Source: an uncultured Lachnospiraceae bacterium
GTDB lineage: Bacteria > Bacillota > Clostridia > Lachnospirales > Lachnospiraceae
NCBI GenBank assembly: GCA_947644545.1
Contig: CANRZW010000005.1
Span: 62,001-126,000, forward strand
Direction: 5' to 3'
Length of the DNA: 64,000 nucleotides
Below the pieces are notes generated by a model. That model was not told the DNA's origin and did no database searches. It worked only from the letters and a program-made list of their open reading frames with translations. Both the position numbers and the translations under genes were made by a program. The first letter of the stretch is position 1. The number at the start of each line of letters is the position of its first letter. Of the stretch, positions 6,341-51,381 are shown piece after piece.

Positions 6341-9076
6341 ATGGCATCAGGACAGGGAGGAAATCGTTCTTCCGCGAAGAAAAAAACGGCGTCTTCAAGC
6401 AGAAGTACGGCTAAAAATAGAAATACACAGACAAGAAAAAGAAATACCGGCAGTAGAAGTACACACACAGAACCGATGGATGTGGCAATCCGCAACGAGA
6501 TATTACTGATCGTGTTTCTTGCGCTTGCGATCATCCTTTTTCTTTGCAATTTCGGTGTGGTCGGTAAAGTCGGAGATGTGGCCAGCGATGTAATGTTTGG
6601 GATCTTCGGCCTGACTGCCTATATCGCACCGGTGATTATTTTTCTGGCGATCGCTTTTGGGATGTCCAATGTGGGGAGCACGATAGCAGCCAGGAAACTG
6701 GTCGCCGGTGCCGTCCTCTTTCTTCTGGTCAGCATGGTCTGTGAATTGTTCGGCACGGATCCGGCACAGGCGGAAAGTTACCAGGCAGGGGAGATCTTCG
6801 CAAGATGCAGTGAACAACATAACGGGGGCGGTTTGATAGCCGGTTCTCTTCTATACGCGTCTTACAAGTTCCTGGGCATGGTAGGAACCGTGCTTGCGCT
6901 CCTTGTTGTGGGTGTGATCTGCATGGTGATCGTCACCGAGAAGTCACTGATCGGCGGCGTTACGAAACAGGGCCGCAGAATGTATGAGAGATCGGTGGAG
7001 GATGCCCAGTATCGGCGGGAGCGGGCTAAAGAGAGACGTATCGCGCAGGAAGAAAAGCGTGCAAAAGCGGAAGAAAAACGTATGAAGGCGGCAGAGGAAC
7101 GCAGACTTCGTGCGGAAGAGATCGAGAATGAAAAGATACTGCGCATGGACAAGAAAGTATCCGGCGTCATGCTTGATACGTCCTTGAATAAGAGCAGGGA
7201 GAAGGAAACACCGGAGAAAACGCGGGATGACCTGCATGAGATCACACTGCAGATACCGGAAGAGGGCGTCTATGAAGAAATGCCCAAGCCGCCTGTAAAG
7301 GAGGAACTCTCCAGTCATTACATAGCAAATGAATCGGATGATCTTGGCGAGATACGCATCTACGGAGCGGCGGAAGAGAAAGAAAGAGAGCCGGAGAAAG
7401 AGAGAGAGACAGTACAGATTCAGGATATGCCCGTTTCTGCGGAACCGGCAATTCATCAGCACGGGAGAACGATCGGAGCCGGTAACGGCAGTGAACTGAC
7501 GAATGCCATGGCGCCGCATCCGGACGAAGAACGGGTTCCGGCAGAGCATTCCATTGCCGGAGAGGTGTCCGAACAGGAGTTAAAGACGCCCAGACCGTAT
7601 AAATTTCCTTCTTATGATCTGCTACAGAAGGCAAAGAACAAAAACGGCGGCGATTCTGCCAGGGAATTAAAAGAGACGGCAATGCATCTGCAGCAGACGC
7701 TGGGGACGTTCGGCGTCAAAGTGACCATCACGGATATCAGCCAGGGCCCCTCGGTCACACGGTATGAGCTACAGCCTGAGCAGGGCGTAAAGGTGAGTAA
7801 GATCGTTGGACTTGCCGATGATATCAAGCTGAACCTTGCGGCTACGGATATCCGTATAGAAGCGCCGATACCCGGTAAGGCGGCTGTCGGGATCGAGGTT
7901 CCCAATAAGGAGAACACTTCGGTATCCTTCAGAGAACTGGTGGAATCCAAGGAGTTCCGGGAGTTCCCCTCGAATCTTGCCTTCGCGGTCGGTAAGGACA
8001 TCGGCGGTAAGATCGTGGTGACGGATATTGCCAAGATGCCCCATATGCTGATCGCCGGGTCTACCGGTTCCGGTAAGTCGGTCTGTATCAATACGATCAT
8101 CATGGGAGTTTTGTACAAGGCGAAGCCGGAAGACGTGAAATTGATCATGGTTGATCCGAAAGTCGTGGAGCTGAGCGTCTATAACGGAATCCCGCATCTG
8201 CTGATCCCCGTGGTGACAGATCCCAAGAAAGCGGCAGCCGCTTTGCACTGGGGGGTAGCCGAGATGACGGATCGTTATAAGAAGTTTGCGGATTACAATG
8301 TGCGTGATCTCAAGGGCTATAACCATAAAGTGGAGGAGCTGCAGAAGAAGGGGGATCCGGAAGCGCCGGCGAAGCTGCCGCAGATCCTGATTATCGTGGA
8401 CGAGCTTGCAGATCTGATGATGGTATCGCCGGGTGAGGTGGAAGAGTCTATCTGCCGCCTGGCACAGCTTGCAAGAGCGTGCGGCATCCACCTGATCATT
8501 GCAACCCAAAGACCGTCTGTGGATGTCATCACAGGTCTGATCAAGGCCAATATGCCCAGCCGGGTGGCTTTTGCCGTTTCCAGCGGTGTGGATTCCCGTA
8601 CGATTCTGGATATGGTCGGGGCCGAGAAGCTGCTGGGTAAGGGCGATATGCTCTTTTATCCGCAGGGTTATCCCAAACCGGCACGTGTACAGGGAGCCTT
8701 CGTATCGGATAAAGAAGTCTCGGATGTCGTGGATTTCCTGAAAAATCAGGCCATCGGCAATGTCTACAGTGATGATATAGAAGAAAAGATCAAGAATATC
8801 GGCAGCGGCGCGGCGTCACCCGGCGGCAGCGGAAACGGTGACAGCGGTTCCGAGTATGATCAGTATTTTGCGGAGGCGGGCAGATTCATTATCGATAAGG
8901 ATAAGGCGTCCATCGGTATGCTGCAGAGAGTCTTCAAGATCGGATTCAACCGGGCAGCGCGGATTATGGATCAGCTGTGCGAGGCAGGCGTCGTCGGGGA
9001 AGAAGAGGGCACCAAGCCCCGTAAGGTATTGATGAGTGCAGAGGAATTTGAACAGTTTGTGGAAGAAGTGATCTAG
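6341..9076 (+). CDS. ftsK: DNA translocase FtsK/SpoIIIE
   Basis: About 911 residues. The motor moves chromosomal DNA through the division or sporulation septum. N-terminus: a short basic, Ser/Arg/Thr-rich cytosolic stretch, then four membrane helices (about 45-195). A charged Glu/Arg-rich linker follows (about 210-420). The motor domain carries Walker A in [10 protein letters not shown], Walker B in [13 protein letters not shown] and the downstream [19 protein letters not shown]. The C-terminal gamma winged helix ([21 protein letters not shown]) reads DNA orientation sequences. Start ATG 6341 sits behind AGGAGG; an earlier in-frame ATG at 6278 overlaps tepA and has no good ribosome site. In a sporulating host one protein may serve both division and sporulation. 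Confidence 0.95.
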
Positions 9077-9095: not shown

Positions 9096-10766
9096 ATGAA
9101 GACAGATATTGAGATTGCACAGGAAGCAAGAATGGAAAATATTGTGGCTGTTGCCGGCAGGATCGGGATAGAGCCTGATGATCTTGAGTTATACGGGAAG
9201 TACAAGGCGAAGATCTCAGACGAGTATATCGACCGTATCCAGCAGAACCCTGACGGAAAACTGATCCTTGTAACGGCGATCAACCCTACGCCGGCCGGGG
9301 AGGGCAAGACGACTACGAGCGTAGGGCTTGGGCAGGCATTTGGCCGCTTGGGGCTTAAGGCCGTCATAGCGCTCAGAGAGCCGTCGCTTGGTCCCTGTTT
9401 TGGCATCAAAGGAGGCGCGGCCGGCGGCGGTTACGCGCAGGTGGTGCCGATGGAAGACTTGAATCTGCACTTTACAGGCGATTTCCATGCCATTACTTCA
9501 GCCAATAATCTGCTGGCGGCGCTTTTGGATAATCATATTCAGCAGGGGAACGAGCTGGGGATCGACACCAGACAGATCGTCTGGAAGAGATGTCTGGACA
9601 TGAATGATCGCGCCCTGAGAAATATCGTGACAGGCCTTGGGAGCAAGGCTGACGGTTTTGTCAGAGAAGACCACTTTGTGATCACGGTCGCCTCGGAGAT
9701 CATGGCGATCCTGTGTCTGGCCTCCGATATGGAAGACTTAAAGGCACGGCTGGGCCGGATCATCGTCGCGTATACCGTTCAGGGCGATCCGGTGACCGCC
9801 TCCGATCTTAAGGCAGTCGGCGCTATGGCAGCGCTGTTAAAGGATGCCATGAAACCGAATTTGATTCAGACGCTGGAGCATACACCTGCATTGGTCCACG
9901 GAGGACCTTTTGCCAATATCGCACATGGATGCAATTCTGTACGGGCTACCAGGACAGCTCTCAAAATGGCGGATTATGTCATTACGGAGGCCGGCTTCGG
10001 CGCGGATCTTGGCGCAGAGAAATTCTTCGATATCAAGTGCCGTATGGCAGGATTAAAACCGGATGCGGTGGTTTTGGTGGCAACCATCCGCGCTTTAAAG
10101 TATAATGGAGGCGTTGCCAGGGAAGCTCTGTCGGAAGAGAATCTGCCGGCATTACAGGCAGGGATCGTAAATCTGGAAAAACATATTGAGAACTTACATA
10201 AATATCAGGTGCCGATCGTGGTGACGCTGAATTCTTTTGTTACAGATACACCGGCGGAGATTGCGTTTGTTAAAGAATTCTGTCAGGAACGGGAATGTGA
10301 ATTTGCTATTTCCGAAGTCTGGGAAAAAGGCGGTGACGGCGGCGTAGAATTGGCCTCTAAGGTATTGGAGACGCTTGAGAAGAAGGAAAGCCATTTCAAG
10401 GTATTATACGAGGATTCCTTAACTTTGCGGGAAAAGATCGAAACGATAGCATCCGAGATCTACGGTGCGGGGGGTGTGAGCTATACCGCGGCCGCTGTAA
10501 AGCAGCTTACGAATCTGGAGGCGCTTGGCTTCGGAAACCTGCCGGTCTGCATGGCCAAGACGCAGTATTCCCTTTCGGATGACCCGTCTCTTCTTGGAAG
10601 GCCTGTAGGCTTTCATATGCAGGTAAGAGAAGTATATGTTTCCGCAGGCGCAGGCTTTGTAGTGGTTCTGACGGGCGCCGTCATGACAATGCCGGGACTG
10701 CCGAAGAAACCGGCGGCCTATCAGATCGATGTGGACGAACAGGGTAAGATCACAGGACTGTTCTAG
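9096..10766 (+). CDS. fhs: Formate--tetrahydrofolate ligase
   Basis: A 556-residue enzyme that makes 10-formyl-THF from formate, THF and ATP. The nucleotide-binding loop [16 protein letters not shown], the conserved [17 protein letters not shown] and [13 protein letters not shown] are all present, and the length is standard. Start ATG 9096 follows AAAGGGTGG by seven bases; a TTG two codons earlier is a weaker choice. It is followed 25 bases later by folD, giving the two steps from formate to methylene-THF used by purine synthesis, by metH and, in acetogens, by the methyl branch of the Wood-Ljungdahl pathway. No other Wood-Ljungdahl genes are visible here. Confidence 0.97.
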
Positions 10767-48945: not shown

Positions 48946-49548
48946 TTATATGTTGATCCGCCGGATCACGCGGCAGGGATTTCCGACAGCAAGTGAATTC
49001 TCCGGGATATCTTTCGTGACGACACTTCCTGCTCCGATTACACAGCCGTCTCCGATTGTCACACCCGGCAGTACGATTACGCCGCCGCCCAGCCAGCAGC
49101 CGCTGCCAATCCGGATCGGCAGTGCATAGGTACGGCAGAAATACTGCCCGCTCTCAGGATTCCAGTCAGGCGTCAGCCGGTCAGACAGCTCTACGGGATG
49201 CGTCGCCGTATAGAGCTGCACGTTGGAGGCAATGAGCACATGGTCGCCGATGGTGATCCGGTTACAGTCAACAAAGGTACAGTTCATATTGATCGACACA
49301 TTATTGCCGATGTAAATATTTTGTCCATAGTCACAGATAAACGGCTGCCCCACGGATACATTCGCACCGATACTGCCGAACAGCTGTCTTAGGATATCCG
49401 CCTTTTCGTTCTTTTGTTCATAGGCAAGCGCATGATATTCTTTCAGTAGTTTCCTTGCCTGAGTCTTATATTGCAGAAAAATCTCGTCATGGCAGTTATA
49501 GTATTCGCCCGCCATACATTTCTCCAGTTCATTCTTAAGTTCGCTCAT
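48946..49548 (-). CDS. Maltose/galactoside O-acetyltransferase-like enzyme (LbH family)
   Basis: A 200-residue left-handed beta-helix acetyltransferase on the minus strand. The N-terminal Mac domain has EKCMAGEYYNCHDEIF. The hexapeptide repeats follow (NIYIGNNVSINMNCTFVDCN; RIGSGCWLGGGVIVLPGVTI), ending IGDGCVIGAGSVVTKDIPEN. The catalytic His lies in LYTATHPVELSDR. Members add acetyl groups from acetyl-CoA to sugars, either for detoxification or for glycan decoration. It is divergent from the HTH-FlhA-like gene. Confidence 0.88.
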   Translation of the reverse strand: MSELKNELEKCMAGEYYNCHDEIFLQYKTQARKLLKEYHALAYEQKNEKADILRQLFGSIGANVSVGQPFICDYGQNIYIGNNVSINMNCTFVDCNRITIGDHVLIASNVQLYTATHPVELSDRLTPDWNPESGQYFCRTYALPIRIGSGCWLGGGVIVLPGVTIGDGCVIGAGSVVTKDIPENSLAVGNPCRVIRRINI

Positions 49549-49667: not shown

Positions 49668-49776
49668 CGCCTTATCTGCCTTTTGACAAGCTGACTTTTT
49701 AGACTGTGCCCGTTGCTCTGTAAGCGGCACTTTCCGGAAATTATCATGGTTGAAGTTCGCTGCAACAGACAGTTGT

Positions 49777-49805
49777 TTTACAACACGGGATGTATGGGAT
49801 ATCAT
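49777..49805 (+). promoter_or_regulatory. Promoter with an overlapping dyad for the HTH-FlhA-like regulator
   Basis: TTTACA at 49777-49782, a 17-base spacer and TATCAT at 49800-49805. The inverted repeat GTTGT-TTT-ACAAC at 49773-49785 covers the -35 box, as expected for an autoregulatory site of the HTH protein encoded downstream. This and the minus-strand promoter account for the 49549-49835 gap. Confidence 0.55.
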
Positions 49806-49835
49806 ATCGGTATAACATGTAAGGAGGAAAAGAAT

Positions 49836-50579
49836 ATGCAGCAAATCGGTGAAAACATCAGCAGGTTCAGAAGAGAGCAGAACATGACACAGGACGAGTT
49901 TGCATTACGGCTGGGCGTGACGCCGCAGGCCGTGAGCAAATGGGAGCGGGGATACAGTCTTCCGGATGTTACTCTGGTTGTACAGATCTGCCAGCTATTG
50001 AAAGTCCGGGCGGATACGTTATTGGGCATAGACAACGTATCTTTTTGTGAAAACGAGAATACCGCGGCAGAGCGGGAGATCAGGCAGAACCTGATCGCAG
50101 AGCCGCTCCGTGTCGAAATAGGCGTCGGGCTGATTTCCTGTATTTCGGAAGGATTAAAGACCGATTACGTAAATCAGTGCCGGAAGAAACTTGCCGCCGA
50201 GACAGGAATGCTCCTGCCGATTCTCAGAATTCGGGATTCCCTGCAGCTGTCAGAGACGGGACTTTGTATTACGGCTTATGATCAGGTGTTACTGCAAACG
50301 GAATATGCGGACACGGACGAACACACATTTTACAGGATCATTGATGAAACCGTCAGACTGTGCAAAGAGCATTATGACAGAATCTTAAACAAGCAGCTTG
50401 TCAAAAGCCTGCTGGATAATCTGCAGGCGCAATATCCGGGCACATTGGACGGCCTGGTGCCGGACAGGGCAGGATATTACGAAGTCATGGAATATCTGCG
50501 TAAGACGATCGCGCAGAAAGGGAATCTTCGGGATCTGATCCACATTATGGAGGAGCTGGAATGCGGATTTTATCGTTGA
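49836..50579 (+). CDS. XRE-type HTH regulator fused to a FlhA-like C-terminal domain
   Basis: A 247-residue soluble protein with two parts. Residues 5-64 are an XRE helix-turn-helix (ISRFRREQNMTQDEFALRLG, then VTPQAVSKWERGYSLPD). Residues 86-243 resemble the cytoplasmic domain of the flagellar export protein FlhA. The matching pieces, in FlhA order, are EPLRVEIGVGLI (89-100), LPILRIRDSLQL (127-138), LLDNLQAQYPGTLDGLVPD (192-210), and NLRDLIHIMEEL (230-241). In FlhA these sit in the segments that open with DPL.xEIGxxLI, reach xxIRDN..L, and close with LLD.....P.L...LVP and IRD...ILE.L. The middle of the FlhA domain is shortened here from about 75 to about 30 residues, and all the membrane helices are missing. 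ATG 49836 lies eight bases after AAGGAGG. No flagellar or type III secretion gene is nearby. The ligand and targets are unknown. Confidence 0.8.
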   Translation: MQQIGENISRFRREQNMTQDEFALRLGVTPQAVSKWERGYSLPDVTLVVQICQLLKVRADTLLGIDNVSFCENENTAAEREIRQNLIAEPLRVEIGVGLISCISEGLKTDYVNQCRKKLAAETGMLLPILRIRDSLQLSETGLCITAYDQVLLQTEYADTDEHTFYRIIDETVRLCKEHYDRILNKQLVKSLLDNLQAQYPGTLDGLVPDRAGYYEVMEYLRKTIAQKGNLRDLIHIMEELECGFYR

Positions 50580-50655: not shown

Positions 50656-51381
50656 ATGATCAACAGAGTCAGCGACAACGATTATTATGATTACAAAAAA
50701 TTAAATATGCCAACGGCCGCGGATACGAACAGCAACGGGGAGAAATTCAGCCTGGGTTACCAGCGTGCCGATGACAAAAAAGAGGAGGAAGATAACAAAG
50801 AGAAGATCTCCAAAAACGGACTGGATAAAAACCTTGCCGGGAACAGATCTCGCACGGTATTGCAGAGCGGTGTCAAGCTGGAGCTGTCCGGAAAGGGGCC
50901 GGAACAGGAAACAGCGGCGAAGGAAGATACCTTTTCGGATTTGTTTCGCACCGTCCGCTCCTGGATCACCACATTTATCCAATCTTTCAAGGGACTTCTT
51001 GACAGGATCTGGAACGATCCGGCGCCCGAAGATACGGTATTGTCCGCAGAAGAGGCGCCGCTTGAAGAGACGGACCGGTTATCGGAAGAGTATCTGGAGA
51101 TGAATCCGGATGTATTGTCGGCAGAGACGGGACAGACGGCCGCTAAGACACCGGAAGAAGTAATGTCCGACAATATGAAGAAGGACAAAGAGATTCAGCA
51201 GTATCTGCGCTCCGGCAATCTGGAACAGGTACTCAACCTGCTGACGGAGAACGGCCATAAGACCATGGCCAGGAATTCTTCCCTGTTGACTTACTACGAT
51301 CGGACCGGCAGGCTTACGTCCTTAAGCGCGTCGGATCAGGAACGGATCCTGCACGGTGACCGGCATGTGAAGAAACTATAG
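50656..51381 (+). CDS. Unknown protein with a low-complexity linker and a C-terminal helical domain
   Basis: A 241-residue protein I cannot assign to a family. Residues 1-90 are polar and charged, rich in Asp, Glu, Lys and Asn. An amphipathic helix follows (about 95-115, DLFRTVRSWITTFIQSFKGL), then an acidic linker. Residues 175-241 form a likely helical domain (EIQQYLRSGNLEQVLNLLTE, ending YYDRTGRLTSLSASDQERIL). There is no signal peptide or membrane helix. The ribosome site before ATG 50656 is AAAGAGAC-like and weak. It lies in the same small region as the HTH-FlhA-like and nuclease-like genes and shares a promoter element with the latter. Confidence 0.62.
   Translation: MINRVSDNDYYDYKKLNMPTAADTNSNGEKFSLGYQRADDKKEEEDNKEKISKNGLDKNLAGNRSRTVLQSGVKLELSGKGPEQETAAKEDTFSDLFRTVRSWITTFIQSFKGLLDRIWNDPAPEDTVLSAEEAPLEETDRLSEEYLEMNPDVLSAETGQTAAKTPEEVMSDNMKKDKEIQQYLRSGNLEQVLNLLTENGHKTMARNSSLLTYYDRTGRLTSLSASDQERILHGDRHVKKL

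Follow-up and report, generated by a model that had tools for sequence, protein, structure and literature searches.

An FlhA-like D1–D3 piece joined to an XRE DNA-binding domain in a probable autoregulator of Lachnospiraceae

One gene of an uncultured Lachnospiraceae bacterium encodes a D1–D3 piece of the cytoplasmic domain of FlhA (FlhA-C), without the membrane part, joined to a DNA-binding domain. The protein is probably a gene regulator which controls its own gene. On balance we favour the reading that a transcription factor of the XRE type, which regulates its own gene, took over a piece of FlhA-C, namely D1 and D3, as its C-terminal half. The gene lies in a stretch of 64,000 nucleotides, the whole of which is called the window here. 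Its parts and neighbours are collected in the table, where the D1, D2 and D3 boundaries, which follow the FlhA literature, are approximate.

Table. Positions in the window of the fusion gene, its parts, its predicted control elements and its two neighbours
Feature	Coordinates	Strand	Remarks
XRE-FHIPEP fusion gene, 247 aa	49836..50579	+	
Ribosome-binding site AAGGAGG of the fusion gene	49821-49827		Read from sequence
XRE/Cro-CI helix-turn-helix domain, residues 1-66	49836..50033	+	
Linker, residues 67-88	50034..50099	+	Lower model confidence
FlhA D1-like region, residues 89-178	50100..50369	+	D2 missing at about residues 150-163
FlhA D3-like region, residues 179-247	50370..50576	+	Without the last FlhA D3 helix and without D4
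Conserved predicted operator	49749..49775	+	Half-sites GTTGA, (T)(C)AAC, GTTG
Predicted -35 box TTTACA	49777..49782	+	Conserved in logo
Predicted -10 box TATCAT	49800..49805	+	17-bp spacer; logo consensus TATAAT
Maltose-acetyltransferase-like hexapeptide gene, divergent	48946..49548	-	Pfam Mac and Hexapep
Hypothetical ORF, 241 aa, downstream	50656-51381	+	No Pfam match

The initial annotation had seen an XRE domain and an FlhA-like cytoplasmic domain in one protein, and both the sequence profiles and the predicted fold confirm this. In a Pfam profile search HTH_3 scored 55.6 bits (cut-off 23), and PF00771 (FHIPEP) scored 56.8 bits against a curated cut-off of 29.1. In the predicted structure, which is that of a monomer, the N-terminal domain matches the folds of P22 c2, SinR and ImmR, and the fold of D1 and D3 matches FlhA-C, with CdsV, YscV and SsaV matching too. 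Model confidence dips between the two parts, with block means of 57-68 across residues 61-90. An artefact or a chance similarity to FlhA is ruled out by the profile scores, the fold and the list of homologues.

The absence of the membrane part and the shortening of the central part, both of which had been noted from the sequence, were borne out. Pfam profile positions below 315 are unmatched, the N terminus being the helix-turn-helix (HTH) instead of the membrane export domain. When aligned with the full-length FlhA encoded by its own genome, the fusion shows a gap at D2, and profile positions 400-457 are unmatched. D4 is absent as well, since by that alignment and by the predicted fold the protein stops within D3. 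The equivalog profile for FlhA, TIGR01398, gave 57.2 bits, far under its cut-off of 772.1. Classification as a merely shortened FlhA was therefore rejected, since the membrane part is missing along with D2 and D4 and the equivalog score is low, and the fusion cannot act as an export gate in the membrane.

When 26 non-redundant fusions were compared with 30 non-redundant FlhA sequences, 13 aligned positions showed strong conservation on both sides, including G96, R116, G124, P128, D134, P209 and E239. Several dozen further residues conserved in FlhA are lost from the fusions, and fusion-specific conserved residues arise, such as Y148, Y180, N185 and Y214. The module is thus FlhA-like, but under different constraints. 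One deep-branching fusion of 300 aa (L157) still aligns through part of D2, with an unbroken Pfam match over profile positions 314-542, and is the only one of 25 fusions in the alignment to carry an insert of approximately D2 size. A deeper group of fusions retains the last D3 helix of FlhA. Both forms would fit a history in which a copy of FlhA-C joined the XRE domain and was then trimmed step by step.

A protein search with the fusion gave 422 matches at E<=1e-3 among 903 candidates, and of the best 120 of these all contained PF00771 and all except one an HTH. Of 3328 candidates searched with a profile of D1-D3, over a length range that excludes full-length FlhA, 147 matched at E<=1e-5; in the best 120 of the 147, PF00771 was present in all and an HTH in all except 5, which are 169-192 residues long. 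Invariant residues occur in the HTH and in the FlhA-like domain alike across 33 aligned sequences. Some homologues (P0027, P0030, P0069) bear source names such as "FHIPEP family type III secretion protein" or "flagellar biosynthesis component FlhA", which are misleading and would inflate counts of export genes.

The distribution is patchy. With at most about six candidates scored per genome, a fusion match above 100 bits was found in 17 of 397 family genomes, the 17 belonging to 16 genera, and within the genus of the window the fusion is present at E<=1e-25 in 16 of 77 genomes. In a class-wide sample of 391 genomes with few Lachnospiraceae, the D1-D3 profile matched 147 genomes at E<=1e-12, a cut-off which may miss weaker or divergent fusions. 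Among the frames read, the only fusion was the window's own and the others were long FlhA-type frames; the matches also took in five short frames (G824, G842, G641, G623, G741).

A tree was built from 33 fusions together with the D1/D3 regions of 37 FlhA, and in it all fusions fall on one side of a branch with support 100/100; the midpoint root and the long branches limit how the internal order can be read. The tree left out fusions shorter than 235 residues (L015, L153, L155, L156, L190), the near-copies L180, L182, L185 and L187, the FlhA L278 and the split FlhA of G016. The grouping is consistent with a single origin of the fusions, though not proof of one. Over 66 pairs of hosts, mean identity is 32% for the fusion module versus 84% for FlhA, and the two divergences show no significant correlation (Mantel r 0.19, p 0.14). 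Fast divergence is therefore not to be distinguished from hidden paralogy or from horizontal transfer. Three of the 17 family fusions are degraded (G174, G349 and G045), and two of these, the fragmentary or internally deleted copies of G349 and G045, sit in hosts which have FlhA.

An element with at most two mismatches from GTTGTTTTACA was found in 31 of 42 fusion upstream regions (a set which left out L007, L010 and L016) and also before the fragment L156; 10 of the 42 have no clear element, at 3-5 mismatches. The logo of 27 non-redundant regions, which takes in fragment L156, reads GTTGA or GTTTA (-23 to -19), then TCAAC or AAC (to -6), then GTTG (0 to 3), and the last of these runs into TTTACA, 17 bp and TATAAT. 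When the loci were scored with a matrix by leave-one-out, 28 of the 42 outscored the best of 98 control XRE upstream regions (24.5 bits); the control median is -1.2 and the maximum over 210 shuffles is 7.8. Three loci (L155, L156, L190) were scored with the matrix although it was built without them. Even where the module shares only about 25-30% identity with that of the window, the element can still be recognised.

The full operator pattern has its sole exact copy in the window's genome at the site in the table. Across 14 fusion genomes there are 10 exact copies in 9 genomes, the other 5 having none, and all 10 precede fusion sequences, nine of them intact genes in the list of fusions and the tenth a truncated relic. 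That relic (L210 1500-1760, G437:C18) consists of the HTH part followed by a stop, with operator and promoter intact, and a second, full-length fusion is found in the same genome. Allowing one mismatch in the 14 genomes gave 30 extra places, of which 2 are fusion promoters and 28 are not, the 28 being somewhat above the 17 for a reversed-pattern control. A short pattern with 2 mismatches in 5 genomes gave, among the matches listed, 204 places versus 192 for its control. A pattern with a variable spacer gave 9 matches in 5 of 12 genomes versus 3 for its control; 2 of the 9 are fusion promoters, and two are one place read on both strands. Of 8 non-fusion places viewed, 6 from the variable-spacer search and 2 from the 14-genome search, five lie inside long frames, one stands before an unrelated HTH-type gene (G434) and two are in neither position. 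The exact, one-mismatch, short-pattern and variable-spacer searches over these sets of 14, 5 and 12 genomes revealed no further recognisable target carrying the full operator.

The top-scoring control XRE genes (L023, L025, L035), whose products have long C termini, carry a near-identical operator, GTTGA-N7-TCAAC-N5-GTTGTTTG, with a spacer one base shorter. In each of these loci it precedes the XRE gene located near position 10001. The pattern suggests that XRE autoregulators of clostridia may form a broader group which shares one DNA code. Since the operator also precedes XRE genes that are not fusions, it informs on the HTH and not on the FlhA part.

Because the operator abuts a near-consensus promoter, an autorepressor is the most likely account. 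The HTH would bind the GTTGA, TCAAC and GTTG sites beside the -35 box, and the bound protein would, we infer from this placement, repress its own promoter. The D1-D3 module would then serve as a domain for contacts between proteins. In FlhA, D1 and D3 contribute to the ring, and one option is that the surfaces which help to build that ring allow the fusion to assemble with itself on the three half-sites. In the other option the module would contact some component of the export machinery of the flagellum, such as FlhA-C, and DNA binding would respond to flagellar assembly. In its specific form, D1-D3 would attach to the FlhA-C ring, or be built into it, or do the same with another export part, and the number of export gates would decide whether the protein is kept off DNA or let onto it; this is possible, though less likely than not. 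If it were true, flagellar assembly would be linked to transcription along a path other than secretion of the FlgM type.

The fusion is associated with hosts which have flagellar genes. With two candidates scored per genome, PF00771 matches 211 of 397 family genomes; in two of these (G272 and G174) the match comes only through the fusion, which leaves 209. Of the 17 fusion genomes, 15 contain full-length FlhA, which in G016 lies in two parts on separate contigs, versus 194 of 380 others, with a one-sided Fisher p of 0.0019 when kinship is ignored. In G272, FlhA is missing from the assembly, and 4 flagellin_N and 6 Flg_bb_rod matches make it very probable that the host is flagellated. In the remaining host, G174 (76% complete), profile searches of the genome found no FlhA and no Flg_bb_rod match, and its fusion match has three stops inside. 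Within the genus of the window, strong FlhA matches occur in 75 of 77 genomes, including 16 of the 16 with the fusion (in G410 in pieces), so co-occurrence is uninformative at that level.

Two further observations were made on individual genomes. The genome of the window (G000) has 10 Flagellin_N matches on contigs C4, C9, C20, C21, C23, C34 and C37, with frames of 649-706 aa among them and three of the matches within 9 kb of one contig. Genome G470 has two full-length FlhA matches, at C1:17697-19721 and C21:42553-44505 (820.7 and 884.3 bits), which may reflect either a second system or contamination, estimated at 6%.

The four closest relatives, L176-L179, retain both genes that flank the fusion (85-91% identity for the acetyltransferase-like gene, 67-81% for the hypothetical), and in these loci as in the window the divergent acetyltransferase-like gene shares its intergenic region with the fusion. 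Within the clade of the window, the divergent gene might be another target of the regulator. In a tblastn search of 45 loci (the 30 loci named below and L176-L190), the divergent gene was found beyond these relatives only in L154 (36%), and the 241-aa hypothetical was not found beyond them. When genes within 9 kb were clustered for 30 loci (the window, L004-L016 and L142-L157), no wider shared neighbourhood was seen, the largest cluster besides the fusion covering 5 of the 30. Two of the 30 hold only a piece of the fusion, of 180 aa (L016) and 72 aa (L155), L007 is the same place as L145, and L010 is close to L148. The L157 fusion (about 8000-8740) lies downstream of a 258-aa ORF which clusters with an ORF near the L143 fusion (c44). 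No flagellar gene was recognised among the nearest genes of 26 loci.

The host pattern, together with the broken copy in G174, favours a flagellar connection, while the lack of flagellar neighbours, the fast divergence and an operator common to other XRE genes call for caution about it. In another account, D1-D3 would be only a self-association scaffold of an ordinary autoregulatory XRE protein, with no flagellar input and with the flagellated hosts incidental. Three half-sites fit more than a dimer, a similar operator stands before XRE proteins with unrelated C-terminal domains, no flagellar neighbour was recognised, and the gene evolves fast. However, the enrichment in FlhA-bearing genomes spans 17 fusion genomes and 16 genera, and the broken copy is in the one host without an FlhA or rod-gene match, though that is a single incomplete genome. 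We consider this account unlikely.

The initial annotation went further and suggested that the binding surface of FlhA could have become a sensor which controls transcription; in the form weighed here, that surface is kept and detects late substrates or chaperones of the flagellum. The module is FlhA-like by profile and by fold, and flagellar genes are present in most hosts, as this would lead one to expect. However, FliT, FliS and FlgN are described as binding FlhA in the cleft between D1 and D2 (PMC5932034), with Asp456 and Leu461 essential for binding and Ile476 a minor contact with FliS (PMC5932034), and Phe459 of D2 is placed in the same dimple (PMC9431611). From these passages Asp456, Leu461 and Ile476 appear to be situated in D2. 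As the cleft needs D2 and D2 is absent here, the known chaperone site is missing from the fusion, and intake of chaperones through it very probably does not occur. The FliJ site is modelled between FlhA D4 domains and the GYXLI motif is located in D1, according to the same source (PMC9431611); D4 is absent too, and the Tyr of GYXLI, present in 30 of 30 non-redundant FlhA sequences, is found in 0 of 26 non-redundant fusions. A soluble, shortened FlhA domain on an XRE protein thus stands, but reuse of the FlhA chaperone and substrate surface as a sensor is not supported, and we regard it as quite improbable.

That the gene is a decaying or selfish leftover without function is very improbable, for although the patchy spread in the family and in the genus, the relics in G174, G349, G045 and L210 and the fast divergence would suit it, full-length two-domain homologues make up most of the best 120 matches, invariant residues occur in both domains, and the promoter element persists when the module has drifted to about 25-30% identity.

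The favoured reading, an autoregulator with an exapted FlhA-C piece, describes a structural piece of an export machine recruited into an apparent regulator, and the case is a clear one, with a deep-branching form which keeps a remnant of D2. If the module senses the export apparatus, a new question follows: how flagellar assembly feeds back on transcription in motile gut Lachnospiraceae. Among open-licence papers, nothing was found on FHIPEP or FlhA joined to an XRE or other DNA-binding domain; the accessible portion of a Roseburia/Eubacterium motility paper (PMC3720852) contains "FHIPEP" and "HTH" 0 times, and a search for Lachnospiraceae motility regulators brought up nothing on the subject, judged by title.

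Several known systems resemble the fusion in part. The closest is the cytoplasmic domain of FlhA (PF00771; PDB 3mix, 3a5i, 6ch2), which belongs to the same sequence family and has the fold predicted for D1 and D3. Unlike FlhA, the fusion has no membrane domain, D2 or D4, carries an N-terminal XRE domain, has lost many residues conserved in FlhA, and is adjoined by no recognised flagellar gene. The SctV/HrcV type III export gates share superfamily and fold with the fusion, but the score for TIGR01399 (SctV), 17.9 bits against a cut-off of 692.25, is far too low for membership. The clostridial XRE proteins of about 350 residues (L023, L025, L035) have a similar promoter operator and a similar recognition helix (TPQAVSKWE), but their C terminus is unrelated to FlhA and gave no match to the D1-D3 profile. 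With SinR, ImmR, PlcR and ComR, autoregulators of the XRE/Cro-CI type, the fusion has in common the N-terminal HTH fold and a likely autoregulation. The C-terminal parts of those proteins are TPR bundles, short helical domains or other domains, whereas that of the fusion is a piece of an export gate.
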